Assembly: GCA_020430675.1 (NCBI GenBank)
Contig: JAGQJJ010000170.1
Location: forward strand, 1 to 7,545
Origin: Myxococcales bacterium
GTDB lineage: Bacteria; Myxococcota; Bradymonadia; UBA7976; UBA1532
Direction: 5' to 3'
DNA: 7,545 nucleotides
In this document: positions 216 to 7,545 of the stretch, piece by piece
Layout of the letters: every line of letters starts with the position of its first letter
Position numbering within the stretch: the stretch's first letter is position 1
Position numbers and translations under genes: made by a program
The notes under the pieces: generated by a model
Databases searched by the model: none
What the model saw: only the letters and a program-made list of their open reading frames with translations
What the model was told of the DNA's origin: nothing

Positions 216-1448
216 TCAGGAGGCGGCGTAGACCTGCACGCCCTTTTTGTAGACCCGCCAGGTGGTCGGCGTCGCCAGGTGATAGGGCAGATGCTCGTGA
301 TCGGGCACCGAGAAGATCGCGAGATCGGCCGGGCGGCCGATCTCGATGGTGCCGGCCACATGGGCCCGACCGATGGCGCGCGCCGCGTGCACGGTGACGG
401 CTTCCAGCACCTCGCGCGCGGTCATGGCCAACCGGCTCATGCCCAGCGTCAGCATCAGCGGCAGGTTCTCGGTCATGCAGGTGCCCGGATTGCAGTCGGT
501 GGCCAGCGCGACGTGCACGCCATGGTCGATCAGCCGTCGGGCGGGCGCGCGCTCGTCGCTGCCGAGGAAAAGCGCAGCGCCGGGCAGCAGCACCCCGACC
601 GTGCCGTGATCGGCGAGCTGCTTGATGCCGAAGTCGCTGATGTGTTCCAGGTGATCGGCGCTGACCGCGCCCAGCCGCGCGGCCAGCTCGGCGCCGCCGC
701 CCGGGCCGAGCTGATCGGCGTGCACCTTGGGGCGCAGGCCATGCGCCAGCCCGGCGCGCAGTACACGCTCGGCTTCGCCCAGCCCGAAGGCGCCCTCTTC
801 GACAAAGACGTCGCAGAACTCGGCCAGCCCCTCGGCGGCGACGGCGGGCAGCATCTCGTCGATCACCTCGGCCAGATAACCCTTGCGGTCGGCGCGCCGG
901 TCGGGTGGCACCGTATGCGCGCCGAGGAAGGTCGCCACGAGGTCGATCGGGTGCGTCGCATCAAGGCGCCGCACGGCGCGCAGGCAGCGCAGCTCGGCGT
1001 CGGTGCTGAGGCCATAGCCGCTCTTGACCTCGGCGGTGGTCACGCCACAGGCGAGCAGGCGGTCGAGGCGCGGGCGGGCGCCGGCGACCAGCTCATCGAC
1101 GGTGGCGGCCCGGGTCGCGCGCATGGTGGCGGCGATGCCCCCGCCCTCAGCGGCGATCTGCAGATAGCTCACGCCGGCCGCGCGCAGCGCGAACTCGTGG
1201 GCGCGGTCGCCGGCAAAGACCAGGTGGGTATGCGGATCGATCAGCCCCGGCGTCAGCAGGCGACCCTGCACATCCACGCGATGGGTCTGCGGACCGACCT
1301 GGTGGCCGGTCGCGGCGAGGCCCTCGGGCGGGCCCACATACACCACCATGCCGTCGTGCACCGCGACCACCACCTCGGTCAGCGGACCGGCGGTGGTGGC
1401 GGTGAACACTTCGCTGGCGTTCTCAAAAAGCAGGTCGACCGGGGTCAT
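216..1448 (-). CDS. hutI: Imidazolonepropionase (EC 3.5.2.7)
   Basis: This enzyme hydrolyses 4-imidazolone-5-propionate to N-formimino-L-glutamate, the third step of cytosolic histidine catabolism. It is a metal-dependent amidohydrolase (TIM barrel) of about 410 residues, the usual HutI length. Visible landmarks, numbered from the chosen start, are LTPGLIDPHTHLVF with the metal-binding HxH pair at His73 and His75, the family signature EVKSGYGL (140-147), KVHADQ with His243, DHLEHIS with His266, and ATDCNPGT with Asp318. These match the zinc ligands and catalytic residues known for HutI. Three consecutive start codons occur: GTG 1454, ATG 1451 and ATG 1448. The GAAGG at 1459-1455 abuts the GTG but sits 6 bases before ATG 1448, so 1448 is preferred. 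Starting at 1451 or 1454 would add one or two residues. The gene follows hutH after a few bases and is almost certainly co-transcribed with it. Confidence 0.97.
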   Translation of the reverse strand: MTPVDLLFENASEVFTATTAGPLTEVVVAVHDGMVVYVGPPEGLAATGHQVGPQTHRVDVQGRLLTPGLIDPHTHLVFAGDRAHEFALRAAGVSYLQIAAEGGGIAATMRATRAATVDELVAGARPRLDRLLACGVTTAEVKSGYGLSTDAELRCLRAVRRLDATHPIDLVATFLGAHTVPPDRRADRKGYLAEVIDEMLPAVAAEGLAEFCDVFVEEGAFGLGEAERVLRAGLAHGLRPKVHADQLGPGGGAELAARLGAVSADHLEHISDFGIKQLADHGTVGVLLPGAALFLGSDERAPARRLIDHGVHVALATDCNPGTCMTENLPLMLTLGMSRLAMTAREVLEAVTVHAARAIGRAHVAGTIEIGRPADLAIFSVPDHEHLPYHLATPTTWRVYKKGVQVYAAS

Positions 1449-1454
1449 CATCAC

Positions 1455-1459
1455 CCTTC
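1455..1459 (-). promoter_or_regulatory. Ribosome binding site for hutI in the hutH-hutI junction
   Basis: On the minus strand the hutH TGA (1462-1460) is followed directly by GAAGG and then GTG-ATG-ATG. The spacing (0, 3 and 6 bases to the three candidates) favours the third start codon. The tight junction suggests translational coupling. Confidence 0.6.
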
Positions 1460-3004
<1,545 letters not shown>

Positions 3005-3031
3005 GGATCCTCTCGGGAGATCGACGCGAAG

Positions 3032-3060
3032 AGTGTAGCAGTCCCCGCGCGCAGTGTCCC
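3032..3060 (-). promoter_or_regulatory. Sigma70-like promoter of hutHI
   Basis: On the minus strand there is GGGACA (3060-3055), a 17-base spacer, and TACACT (3037-3032) preceded by TGC, an extended -10. Four of six bases match consensus in each box and the spacing is ideal. Transcription would begin near 3025, giving a leader of about 21 bases that carries the hutH ribosome binding site. This is predicted by eye, and the sigma-factor preference of this organism is unknown. Confidence 0.5.
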
Positions 3061-3066
3061 CCGGTC

Positions 3067-3078
3067 CGATGCGCATCG
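3067..3078. promoter_or_regulatory. 12-base perfect palindrome, candidate operator for hutH or the divergent gene
   Basis: CGATGCGCATCG is its own reverse complement. It is centred about 47 bases upstream of the predicted hutH transcription start, just beyond the -35 box, and within the 157-base divergent region shared with the HAD gene. The position suits an activator site, or a regulator serving both directions. The cognate protein is unknown, and in such GC-rich DNA a 12-base palindrome can occur by chance. Confidence 0.35.
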
Positions 3079-5144: not shown

Positions 5145-5696
5145 GTGGATGCGCGATCGATGACCGGCCTGGCCGCGGTGCTGCTCTTTGCCGCTGTCGC
5201 TGCGCATCGTCATTGGCCCGCGCCCGACCCGCTGCCAGCGGCGCCCTGCACCGCACCGGTGCTGCTGGGCGGATCTTCACCCCGACTGATCTGCGACGCC
5301 TCATCCCGCGCCGTGCTGTTGGCGCTGTGCCCGCCAGACCAGGCGATACGCCCAGGCGACCGGCTGACGGCAATGCCCGCGGTGGGGGGCTGCGAGACCC
5401 GCGTCACGCGGGGTTCGACGACGATCCGCCTCGGCTTCGGCGTGCCGATCGACATCAACAACGCCCACCGGGACGACCTGCTGCACCTGCCCGGCGTGGG
5501 GCCGCATACCGCCGACGCGCTGATCGCCGGACGACCCTACAAACGACTGGAAGACTTGTTGAACGTGCCGGGCATCGGACCCGCCCGACTCCGCGCCCTG
5601 CGGCGCCTGCTCACGGTGTCGCCGGCGGCTCCGCTTCCGCGGCCTCTTTGGCCTTCTTCTCGGCCTCGCGGCGCTTCAACTCTTCAAAAACCTTGA
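5145..5696 (+). CDS. ComEA-like helix-hairpin-helix protein with N-terminal membrane segment
   Basis: This is a 183-residue protein. Residues 6-20 form one hydrophobic segment (signal anchor or signal peptide), so the rest is probably outside the cytoplasm. A tandem helix-hairpin-helix module fills about 103-157, opening with IDINNAHRDDLLHLPGVGP and repeating VPGIGPARLRALRRLL. The two GxG hairpins, at 117-119 and 143-145, are the DNA-backbone-binding loops. This is the ComEA/HHH_3 arrangement, in which ComEA binds incoming DNA during natural transformation. The middle (about 35-95) has three cysteines (50, 62, 83) and no family I recognise. The last 25 residues are low-complexity and overlap the opposite-strand gene. 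No other competence gene is adjacent, so a role in DNA uptake is inference; a general DNA-binding envelope protein is also possible. ATG 5160 is the alternative start. Confidence 0.8.
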   Translation: MDARSMTGLAAVLLFAAVAAHRHWPAPDPLPAAPCTAPVLLGGSSPRLICDASSRAVLLALCPPDQAIRPGDRLTAMPAVGGCETRVTRGSTTIRLGFGVPIDINNAHRDDLLHLPGVGPHTADALIAGRPYKRLEDLLNVPGIGPARLRALRRLLTVSPAAPLPRPLWPSSRPRGASTLQKP

Positions 5697-6243
5697 GGTT
5701 TTCTTCGAGCGTCTGCTGGTGCAGGCGGGCGCGGTTCAGGTTCTGCTCCAGCGGTCGCTCAAAAGCGGTGGTCTTCCAGACCCCGTCTTCGAGCACAAAC
5801 TCGTACGACTCGCCGCTATGCGTCGGCACCGTGGCGCGATCATCGCGCACCGCCGGGCTGCCGTACGCGGTCAGGCCGTACTTCAGGCCTTCGCCGCCTT
5901 CGAGCTTCTCCAACTCGGGCTGCACCAGCGCAGCAAACAGCGCGGCGCTGTCGGTGGCCTCCAGCGCGCCCTTCGGATAGGCCACCTTCGCCGGCCCCCG
6001 GTGTTCTTCGGGGTAGCGCTCGTCGAACGCGACCCGCTGCTCCTTGAGCAAGGCGTGCAGCGCGGCGAGGTGATCGTGGGTCGCCTTCGACGACGCGGCG
6101 AGCAGGGCCGGCACGTCGCGCGCGAGCACGGCGTCGCGCAGCGTGTGCAGCGCGCCGACCGGCGTCTTGGGGTCGAGGTTCTCCTCGCAGCCGAAGCCGA
6201 CGAGGACCGAGAGGCCGACGATGAGGGCGAAGATGGCGCGCAT
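5611..6243 (-). CDS. Putative lipoprotein or exported protein of unknown function with charged C-terminal helix
   Basis: This is a 210-residue protein. Residues 1-18 form a short basic then hydrophobic signal sequence ending VGFGC. Cys19 could be lipidated, but the -3 residue is Gly rather than Leu/Val/Ile, so the lipobox is poor and simple export is possible. Residues 25-70 hold a helical stretch (TPVGALHTLRDAVLARDV), a middle region follows, and about 150-163 read VLEDGVWKTTAFER. The tail (about 165-203) is strongly charged, likely helical or coiled-coil, ending Ala/Glu/Pro-rich. The shape suggests a small NTF2/SnoaL-like domain, but I do not recognise a named family. It shares its pattern with the divergent gene at 6348 and overlaps the ComEA-like gene tail-to-tail by 86 bases. 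The ATG at 6243 starts the signal peptide cleanly; the nearest Shine-Dalgarno-like GAGGG is 13 bases away, too far to be convincing. Confidence 0.75.
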   Translation of the reverse strand: MRAIFALIVGLSVLVGFGCEENLDPKTPVGALHTLRDAVLARDVPALLAASSKATHDHLAALHALLKEQRVAFDERYPEEHRGPAKVAYPKGALEATDSAALFAALVQPELEKLEGGEGLKYGLTAYGSPAVRDDRATVPTHSGESYEFVLEDGVWKTTAFERPLEQNLNRARLHQQTLEENLKVFEELKRREAEKKAKEAAEAEPPATP

Positions 6244-6249
6244 GGTCTT

Positions 6250-6278
6250 GCAGTAACCCTCGCCGGGCCCCGCGTCAA
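6250..6278 (-). promoter_or_regulatory. Possible promoter of the 6243 minus-strand gene
   Basis: TTGACG (6278-6273) is a five-of-six match to the -35 box. Seventeen bases on is TACTGC (6255-6250), a poor -10. If real, transcription would start at or next to the ATG at 6243, which would make the message leaderless and fit the weak ribosome binding site. It rests mainly on the -35 box. Confidence 0.2.
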
Positions 6279-6347
6279 CCCATCGCGACCGGCATCGCAC
6301 CACCGCAGGGGTTGCGCCGCGGCGGACGCGGTGGGCATCATCGTGGC

Positions 6348-6779
6348 ATGCTCCGCGCGTGCGCTCTTCTCCTCATCTGCTTCGCGGTTGGCCTGCCGGG
6401 CTGCGGCCCGCCGCAGAAGGATCCGGCGGTCATCGCATACGAACAGCTCCACTCTGCGGTACGGCGCGGCGACGCCGAGGCGTTTGTTGAGCTGCTGGGC
6501 CCGGCGAGCCGCAAGACGCTGGCCGATCGGGTCGGCGCATCGCCCGATGACACGGCGGCGTTGGCGAAGCGCGTCGGGGTGCGGCCCGATTGGGCCATTC
6601 TCGACGATCTGCCCCGCCGCGCGCGGGTCGAGCCGGTCGAAGGTGACGCCACGCGACGGGTGGTGACCGGCCCGATCGGGGGCATGGACGCGGCCATCCC
6701 GGTGGTTCTGGTCGACGGCGCGTGGCGGGTGGAGCTCTTCGAGGCCCGCCGTATCGAGCCCGCCGCGCGGGACGGCTGA
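6348..6779 (+). CDS. Small putative lipoprotein of unknown function, likely paralogue of the divergent gene
   Basis: This is a 143-residue protein. Residues 1-18 are a hydrophobic lipoprotein signal peptide ending LPGC, with Cys19 the likely lipidated residue (Leu at -3, Gly at -1). The mature part begins with a Pro-rich linker, then DPAVIAYEQLHSAVRRGDAEAFVELL (25-50), a helical pattern common to small NTF2/SnoaL-like lipoproteins. It ends with VVLVDGAWRVELFEARR (119-135). That C-terminal motif (V-L-x-D-G-x-W-R/K, then F-E) matches the divergent gene, suggesting common ancestry. Length is half to two-thirds that of the partner, which has an added charged tail. The ATG at 6348 is chosen because it gives a compact signal peptide; the frame is open for 12 more codons. 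No good Shine-Dalgarno sequence is seen. It lies 87 bases before the pseudokinase gene in the same orientation. Function unknown. Confidence 0.75.
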   Translation: MLRACALLLICFAVGLPGCGPPQKDPAVIAYEQLHSAVRRGDAEAFVELLGPASRKTLADRVGASPDDTAALAKRVGVRPDWAILDDLPRRARVEPVEGDATRRVVTGPIGGMDAAIPVVLVDGAWRVELFEARRIEPAARDG

Positions 6780-6866: not shown

Positions 6867-7545
6867 GTGGACAGTGCCCAGTCGCCGGCTACCGCAAACG
6901 CCGCCCCGCGTCCGTCGCCACCCAAAGAGGCGACGGCGATCAAGCAGGGGGACAAGGTTGGCAACCGCTTTGTCATCGACGAGCGGCTTGGCGACGGGGT
7001 CTTTGGCACCACGTACCGCGCGGTCGACGAAAAGAGCGGCAAGAAGATCGCCATCTTGATGATGGATCCGGCCCTCGCGGCCGACAAGGCGTCGACCGAC
7101 GCCCTGCGCACGTCGGTCAAGCTGGCGACCGAGCTGGTGCACAAGAATGTGCTCGGCGTGTTTGGCATGGGCAAAGAGGGCGCGCGGCGCTACGTGGCCT
7201 ACGAATATGTCGACGGCCAGACGCTCTCCGAGCTGCTCGACAAGAAGGCCGAGGCGGGCAAGCAGTTCACGCTCAAGGGCGCCTACAACCTGATGGCGCA
7301 CGTCTGCAACGGGCTGCAATACGCCCGCGAGAAGATGTCGCACGATACGCTGCGGCCCTCGGTGGTGCTCATCAACCGCACCGGACGGGTCAAGGTCGCC
7401 GACTTCGGCTTCGCGGCGCTGCGGCCCGCGCTGCTGGGGGCGGGCACGGCTTTGGGGCAATGGGACCTAGCCTGCCTGGACGACGGTTCAAGCCCGATCG
7501 ACGGTCTGCACGCGCTGGGCATCATGATCTACGCGCTGCTCGTCG
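6867..7545 (+). CDS. Serine/threonine protein kinase-fold protein, probable pseudokinase (partial, runs off right edge)
   Basis: The first 226 codons of a longer protein are present. Residues 1-28 are a Pro/Ala-rich leader. A kinase-like domain starts near 30: RLGDGVFGTTYRAVD (40-54) keeps the GxGxxG loop. In the next strand KIAILMMD, the usual VAIK lysine is Leu64, and the alpha-C glutamate is not evident (Thr82/Ser83). YEYVDGQTLSELL (112-124) is a normal hinge region. The catalytic loop reads SHDTLRPSVVLI: against HRDLKPSN, Arg is Asp160, the catalytic Asp is Thr161, Lys is Arg163 and Asn is Val166. DFG is intact at 179-181. No APE motif is seen, but IDGLHALGIMIYALL (211-225) matches the alpha-F region. 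The fold is sure and catalysis very unlikely. Start: GTG 6867 with GGGAG (6852-6856) ten bases upstream; an in-frame TAA lies at 6819. Any C-terminal sensor or membrane domain is outside the window. Confidence 0.88.
   Translation, partial: MDSAQSPATANAAPRPSPPKEATAIKQGDKVGNRFVIDERLGDGVFGTTYRAVDEKSGKKIAILMMDPALAADKASTDALRTSVKLATELVHKNVLGVFGMGKEGARRYVAYEYVDGQTLSELLDKKAEAGKQFTLKGAYNLMAHVCNGLQYAREKMSHDTLRPSVVLINRTGRVKVADFGFAALRPALLGAGTALGQWDLACLDDGSSPIDGLHALGIMIYALLV

Follow-up and report, generated by a model that had tools for sequence, protein, structure and literature searches.

The window analyzed here, the whole 7,545-nucleotide stretch of contig JAGQJJ010000170.1 from the Myxococcales bacterium assembly GCA_020430675.1, ends within the 5' part of a gene for a predicted pseudokinase (Table 1). 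The Pfam Pkinase profile scored 72.9 bits on the translated frame, where 31.7 bits is the cut-off, and a Hanks-type kinase fold (PF00069) was assigned on the basis of this score. In a protein search the exact window protein (P0001) was found on one contig alone, of 7545 bases.

Table 1. Features of the window, with positions counted from its first nucleotide.
Feature	Position	Strand	Remarks
Pseudokinase gene, 5' part, 226 codons	6867..7545	+	GTG start, open to contig end; full-length orthologues L001-L004
Glycine loop, residues 42-47	6990..7007	+	Whole in the window, degenerate in nearly all relatives
Leu64, site of the beta3 (VAIK) Lys	codon 7056..7058	+	Residue check; Lys in 0/64 rows of the window's clade
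Ser83, expected site of the alpha-C Glu	7113..7115	+	Placed by its distance from the HPN-like motif
Hinge, residues 112-117	7200..7217	+	Conserved in alignment
Catalytic-loop remnant, residues 159-166	7341..7364	+	Residue check and family alignments
DFG, residues 179-181	7401..7409	+	Kept in the window; Asp in 51/65 clade rows
lipA, small lipoprotein-like gene	5611..6303	-	Divergent from lipB; no Pfam match above cut-off; lipoprotein by eye
lipB, small lipoprotein-like gene	6312..6779	+	Directly upstream of the pseudokinase gene; no Pfam match; lipoprotein by eye

A check of the individual residues bore out the first-pass annotation of this DNA, which had claimed that Leu64, Thr161 (codon 7347-7349) and Val166 (7362-7364) replace the beta3 Lys, the HRD Asp and the catalytic Asn, respectively. 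It had also held that the alpha-C Glu is missing and that no APE motif follows DFG. Ser83 occupies the expected column, which we take, after other kinases, to lie nine residues N-terminal of the His of the HPN-like motif, and no APE motif was found within the window frame. As the gene is cut at the end of a metagenome contig, these replacements might reflect decay in a single strain or a sequencing error. However, four orthologues with 64–68% identity to the window over 223–226 codons had the same kind of catalytic-site replacements, and their differences from it were distributed over the first, second and third codon positions as about 52, 46 and 86 on average, a coding-type pattern.

To cover the family, an alignment was grown in three steps to 98, 105 and finally 108 rows; P0058, P0059 and P0060, which have no kinase region, and L081, a generic kinase of genome G035, were left out before the 98-row alignment. 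The HRD Asp was present in none of the 108 rows. Its site was occupied by Thr (58 rows), Val (20), Ala (11), Leu (7), Ser (5), Cys (5), Gly (1) or His (1), and a His-Gly-x-Leu pattern was recognizable in 87 rows. Row counts do not equal independent events, since 11 pairs of rows are at least 95% identical. Single-strain decay and sequencing error, which the first-pass annotation had itself named as what would refute it, are nevertheless out, since the Asp is missing from every aligned relative; we consider their chance negligible. The beta3 Lys and HRD Asp expected together in an active Hanks-type Ser/Thr kinase did not occur together, and the loss of the Lys, HRD Asp or DFG Asp was conserved across orthologues, as is diagnostic of a pseudokinase by sequence. 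The designation as a pseudokinase is therefore strongly supported at this level, and the catalytic defect is, as the alignment has it, a property of the family and not of a strain.

The rows were divided between clade I, to which the window belongs (65 rows, or 66 in the tallies that count P0062, which was unplaced in the trees), and its sister, clade II (39 rows). Without P0062, clade I had the beta3 Lys in none of 64 scored rows, the catalytic Asn in nine of 65 and the DFG Asp in 51 of 65, with Glu or Gly in seven rows each. Clade II had the Lys in 35 of 39 rows and the Asn in 27 of 39, and the DFG Asp in none, its site being Asn in 38 rows and His in one. The expected alpha-C Glu was present in one of 65 clade I rows and 16 of 39 clade II rows. 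An APE or SPE triplet was found in only 5 of the 66 clade I rows (P0062 counted), compared with all 42 of the remaining rows. The statement in the first-pass annotation that the protein keeps its glycine loop and DFG held for the window but did not extend to the family: besides the losses of the DFG Asp, all three loop glycines were kept in two of 105 rows, those of the window and P0062, with the first and second Gly mostly gone in clade I and the second in clade II. The intact loop is, in this comparison, a peculiarity of the window and no family trait. L116, L117 and L118, which come from genomes outside the class, shared the architecture described below and likewise lacked the HRD Asp; their residues were Arg, Arg and Tyr in the Lys column, and Asp, Glu and Glu in that of the DFG Asp. 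In one fast-evolving subclade, from genomes G037-G044 (L080 and L088-L094), the HRD His was also replaced, by Phe or Tyr.

Judged from these columns, what each sister clade has lost of the ATP machinery is complementary: the Lys in clade I, the DFG Asp in clade II. This pattern bears on two alternative roles for the fold. It could be a nucleotide sensor, binding ATP or another nucleotide without phosphotransfer so that binding switches docking, and the Lys and catalytic-loop Asn of clade II, the DFG Asp of clade I and the intact glycine loop of the window would all suit such a role. Yet neither clade retains a complete set, as loop glycines have gone from both, and we think this alternative unlikely. 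Unusual catalysis, such as the AMPylation by SelO or glutamylation by SidJ, is conceivable in that some pseudokinases have gained other chemistries (PMC12599244) and this family retains pocket residues in part. SelO and SidJ, however, retain the Lys and the DFG-site Asp (Table 1 of the same article), whereas our sister clades lost different pocket residues with no change in architecture, which makes such catalysis very improbable.

The phylogeny was determined from thinned rows, 76 of the family and 20 canonical kinases, with 200 bootstrap trees. The family formed one side of a branch separating it from the canonical kinases (support 100/99) in 200 of 200 bootstrap trees, and both clade I (38 rows, 98/98) and clade II (34 rows, 100/99) were supported. 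L116-L118 and P0062 were at the base, where their placement was unresolved; a quick tree of 99 rows was in agreement. The 20 outgroup rows were picked among the 54 of 65 search matches whose HRD motif is canonical, and because of this choice the tree alone is not proof against an active kinase nested in the family. No intact active ancestor carrying the GYF, transmembrane and tail regions of the orthologues was found among the 65 non-family matches P0063-P0127 (within the best 120 of 226 matches): P0079 matched the GYF-tail profile weakly and in part, whereas no match was obtained with the other 64. The simplest history would be that the HRD Asp was lost once, before the family spread, and that opposite further losses followed.

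The window copy ends before the C-terminal regions, so they were studied in its orthologues. Full-length orthologues of about 640 residues comprise the pseudokinase, a Pro-rich linker, a GYF-like domain, one transmembrane helix and a TonB/TolA-like tail of the AgmX/PglI type. The kinase, GYF and TonB-like folds and the membrane topology are predictions. The order GYF, transmembrane helix and TonB-like tail is that of GltJ (AgmX) of the Myxococcus xanthus Agl-Glt gliding machinery, and of 45 rows, 40 matched the GltJ model in their GYF-to-tail half. The GltJ GYF structure was among the best structural matches, each of them weak by itself. By sequence, the profile of the C-terminal half matched no protein of solved structure (best E 0.66). 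With the AgmX/PglI tail model NF033768 (domain cut-off 40 bits), the proteins of G001 and G003 scored 40.1 and 41.5 and those of G004 and G002 scored 38.3 and 36.9; four whole proteins scored 32.9–36.9 bits, and 44 of 45 rows matched at E values up to 0.01.

Tail-model matches were not confined to the pseudokinase, numbering 17, 13, 22 and 20 in the genomes of L001-L004. Ten tail proteins were scanned: two had an FHA domain, four had a zinc ribbon and GYF_2 (one ribbon being below its cut-off) and four had no recognized N-terminal domain. G003 encodes all three versions (pseudokinase, FHA and zinc ribbon). As the tail proteins carry differing N-terminal domains, this chassis can take different cytoplasmic ends. 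In sequence terms, the family has the chassis of GltJ, its pseudokinase standing where GltJ has the zinc ribbon, the domain with which the GltJ-like proteins of these genomes begin. The zinc ribbon of GltJ and its neighboring motifs bind MglA, AglZ and MglB. These resemblances raise the possibility that the family is itself the GltJ of this class and part of an Agl-Glt-type gliding machine. Against this, the GltJ equivalog model NF033761 (cut-off 450 bits) scored 19.7 bits on L001 and was above its cut-off in none of the 57 class genomes, separate proteins with zinc ribbon, GYF and tail occur in G001, G003, G035 and G039, and no glt gene was present among the neighbors scanned or compared. We regard a gliding role as quite improbable.

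Those 57 genomes are the ones searched from the class of G003. A kinase-bearing orthologue was identified in 52 of them, 45 initially and seven more (G038-G044) with the A3 profile. Of the rest, G035 has the GYF-transmembrane-tail region in a 418-residue frame with no kinase in frame (L087), possibly because the pseudokinase was lost or the frame is broken; in G023, G053, G054 and G057 the A3 profile matched through its later part alone and never over its full length. Family members were also found in genomes consisting of a single large contig (G005, G006 and G018), and each genome had one strong match among the matches listed. For the phylum, 95 genomes were sampled, 19 of which are also in the class, with the best 24 candidates at most scored per genome. 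Among the matches listed, 13 places outside the class were fetched: three had the same architecture (G080, G095 and G119), seven were short GYF-transmembrane-tail frames and three were other tail proteins. The seven short frames (L119-L125; 297–359 residues) were kinase-free in frame, and could represent either the chassis before fusion to the pseudokinase or what is left after its loss. Together, the sequences document the loss of the catalytic Asp, a single family, a shared domain order and wide retention within the class.

The genes surrounding the pseudokinase in clade I follow, in whole or in part, the order hutH-HAD-crcB-GDPD-HhH-lipA(-)-lipB-pseudokinase-Cys-rich-NUDIX-tsaE-sigma-like. 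Profile matches above cut-off were obtained for NUDIX, TsaE and Sigma70_r4_2 in L003 and for CRCB in the window, crcB not having been traced in other loci. lipA lies beside the pseudokinase gene in 12 of 13 other clade I loci and lipB was seen in several; the two stand back to back, are alike in size and layout and, by eye, may be paralogues. tsaE was located downstream on the same strand in seven of the 13 loci from clade I and in 21 of the 32 from clade II, some of them ending earlier. Farther upstream in the window (216-3076, minus strand) is a pair of genes for a hutI-like amidohydrolase and a hutH-like aromatic amino acid lyase, and the position of hutH upstream of the pseudokinase region is kept in L001, L082, L083, L084 and L086.

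Of the 37 loci in which a frame follows the pseudokinase, 11, drawn from both clades, have directly downstream a gene for a protein with 63–66 Cys residues, starting about -1 to 62 bases past the pseudokinase stop (starts taken mechanically). The protein matched no Pfam family above cut-off, and a lipobox-like pattern was flagged in eight of the 11. Relatives were identified in 17 of 57 class genomes, and from these two counts the pairing is common but not obligatory. The protein is lipoprotein-like and about 440–480 residues long (L003:9984-11390, plus strand, with equivalents in L001, L004, L047-L050, L052, L069, L082 and L083), and its Cys count is nearly fixed across distant lineages.

Several known systems share parts of this design. 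The C-terminus of GltJ is described as TonB-like (PMC8262864). GltG (PglI), like GltJ a part of the Agl-Glt system, has a cytoplasmic signaling domain, a transmembrane helix and a TonB-like tail, but the domain is FHA and not a pseudokinase (PMC3169522). Membrane pseudokinases are already known, and experimental study of bacterial pseudokinases has been slight (PMC12599244, main text, as for the next comparisons). The Mycobacterium MviN pseudokinase domain (ActPs3, a family marked by a deletion in the activation loop) is likewise a Hanks fold without activity, carried by a membrane protein, and recruits the FHA protein FhaA after phosphorylation by PknB; EssB/YukC is a single-pass membrane pseudokinase serving as an assembly scaffold. 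Compared by description alone, ActPs3 differs in being mainly actinobacterial and EssB/YukC in belonging to type VII secretion of Firmicutes, with no GYF or TonB-like tail described for either. The GLW pseudokinases share a hydrophobic residue at the beta3 Lys and a transmembrane helix after the kinase domain. Membership in the GLW family was considered and rejected, GLW replacing HRD in none of the 108 rows. The main text of PMC12599244, a review of seven pseudokinase families, contains no mention of GYF or TonB-like domains. Kinase domains of NTP-dependent conflict systems also have mostly disrupted catalytic residues and an assumed non-enzymatic role, but are components of vWA-MoxR systems, are kin to actinobacterial kinases and, in the text available, are described with no GYF-kinase fusion (PMC7159879). 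The accessible part of an article on gliding and kinases (PMC7460792) held nothing useful for the family. We found no publication on this pseudokinase family in a search confined largely to openly available literature, so that its absence is unproven.

The first-pass annotation had suggested a scaffold, an allosteric regulator or a nucleotide sensor. Because the orthologues carry a GYF-like domain, a transmembrane helix and a TonB-like tail, we favor a membrane adaptor, and the window probably encodes the N-terminal third of a non-catalytic, bitopic inner-membrane protein that passes a cytoplasmic signal to the envelope. Its cytoplasmic part would consist of the dead kinase fold, the Pro-rich linker and the GYF-like domain, and a single transmembrane helix would lead to a periplasmic helix and the TonB/TolA-like end domain. 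Pseudokinase and GYF-like domain may act as docking platforms recruiting cytoplasmic partners, a role proposed on the precedents of MviN and EssB/YukC (PMC12599244, in the passages on those proteins), and the transmembrane helix and tail may relay or anchor the outcome to the periplasm or cell envelope. Perhaps the linker is a trans substrate of other Ser/Thr kinases encoded by the genome. As these genomes encode many kinase-domain proteins of putative activity together with FHA tail proteins, one could imagine a phosphorylated linker making contact with FHA, though this is speculative.

Because the two lineages shed complementary parts of the ATP machinery yet kept the fold and the chassis, and because the cytoplasmic end of the latter is exchangeable, the pseudokinase may be a reader module and not a failed enzyme. 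The fuller proposal, that one ancestral Asp loss, opposite later losses and exchangeable ends made it a reader coupling a Ser/Thr-kinase network to an envelope machine, partly paired with the protein of about 64 Cys, is possible and we advance it tentatively, at somewhat short of even chances. Conservation of the inactive design across a group of mostly uncultured, myxobacteria-like bacteria points to a working signaling scaffold, not a decaying gene. In the class searched, almost every genome has this pseudokinase, joined to domains whose behavior is known. A comparison of the two clades offers a natural experiment, for if they function alike, ATP chemistry would not matter to what the fold does. 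The findings also suggest that the trans-envelope design of GltJ and GltG is used beyond gliding, with different cytoplasmic input modules.
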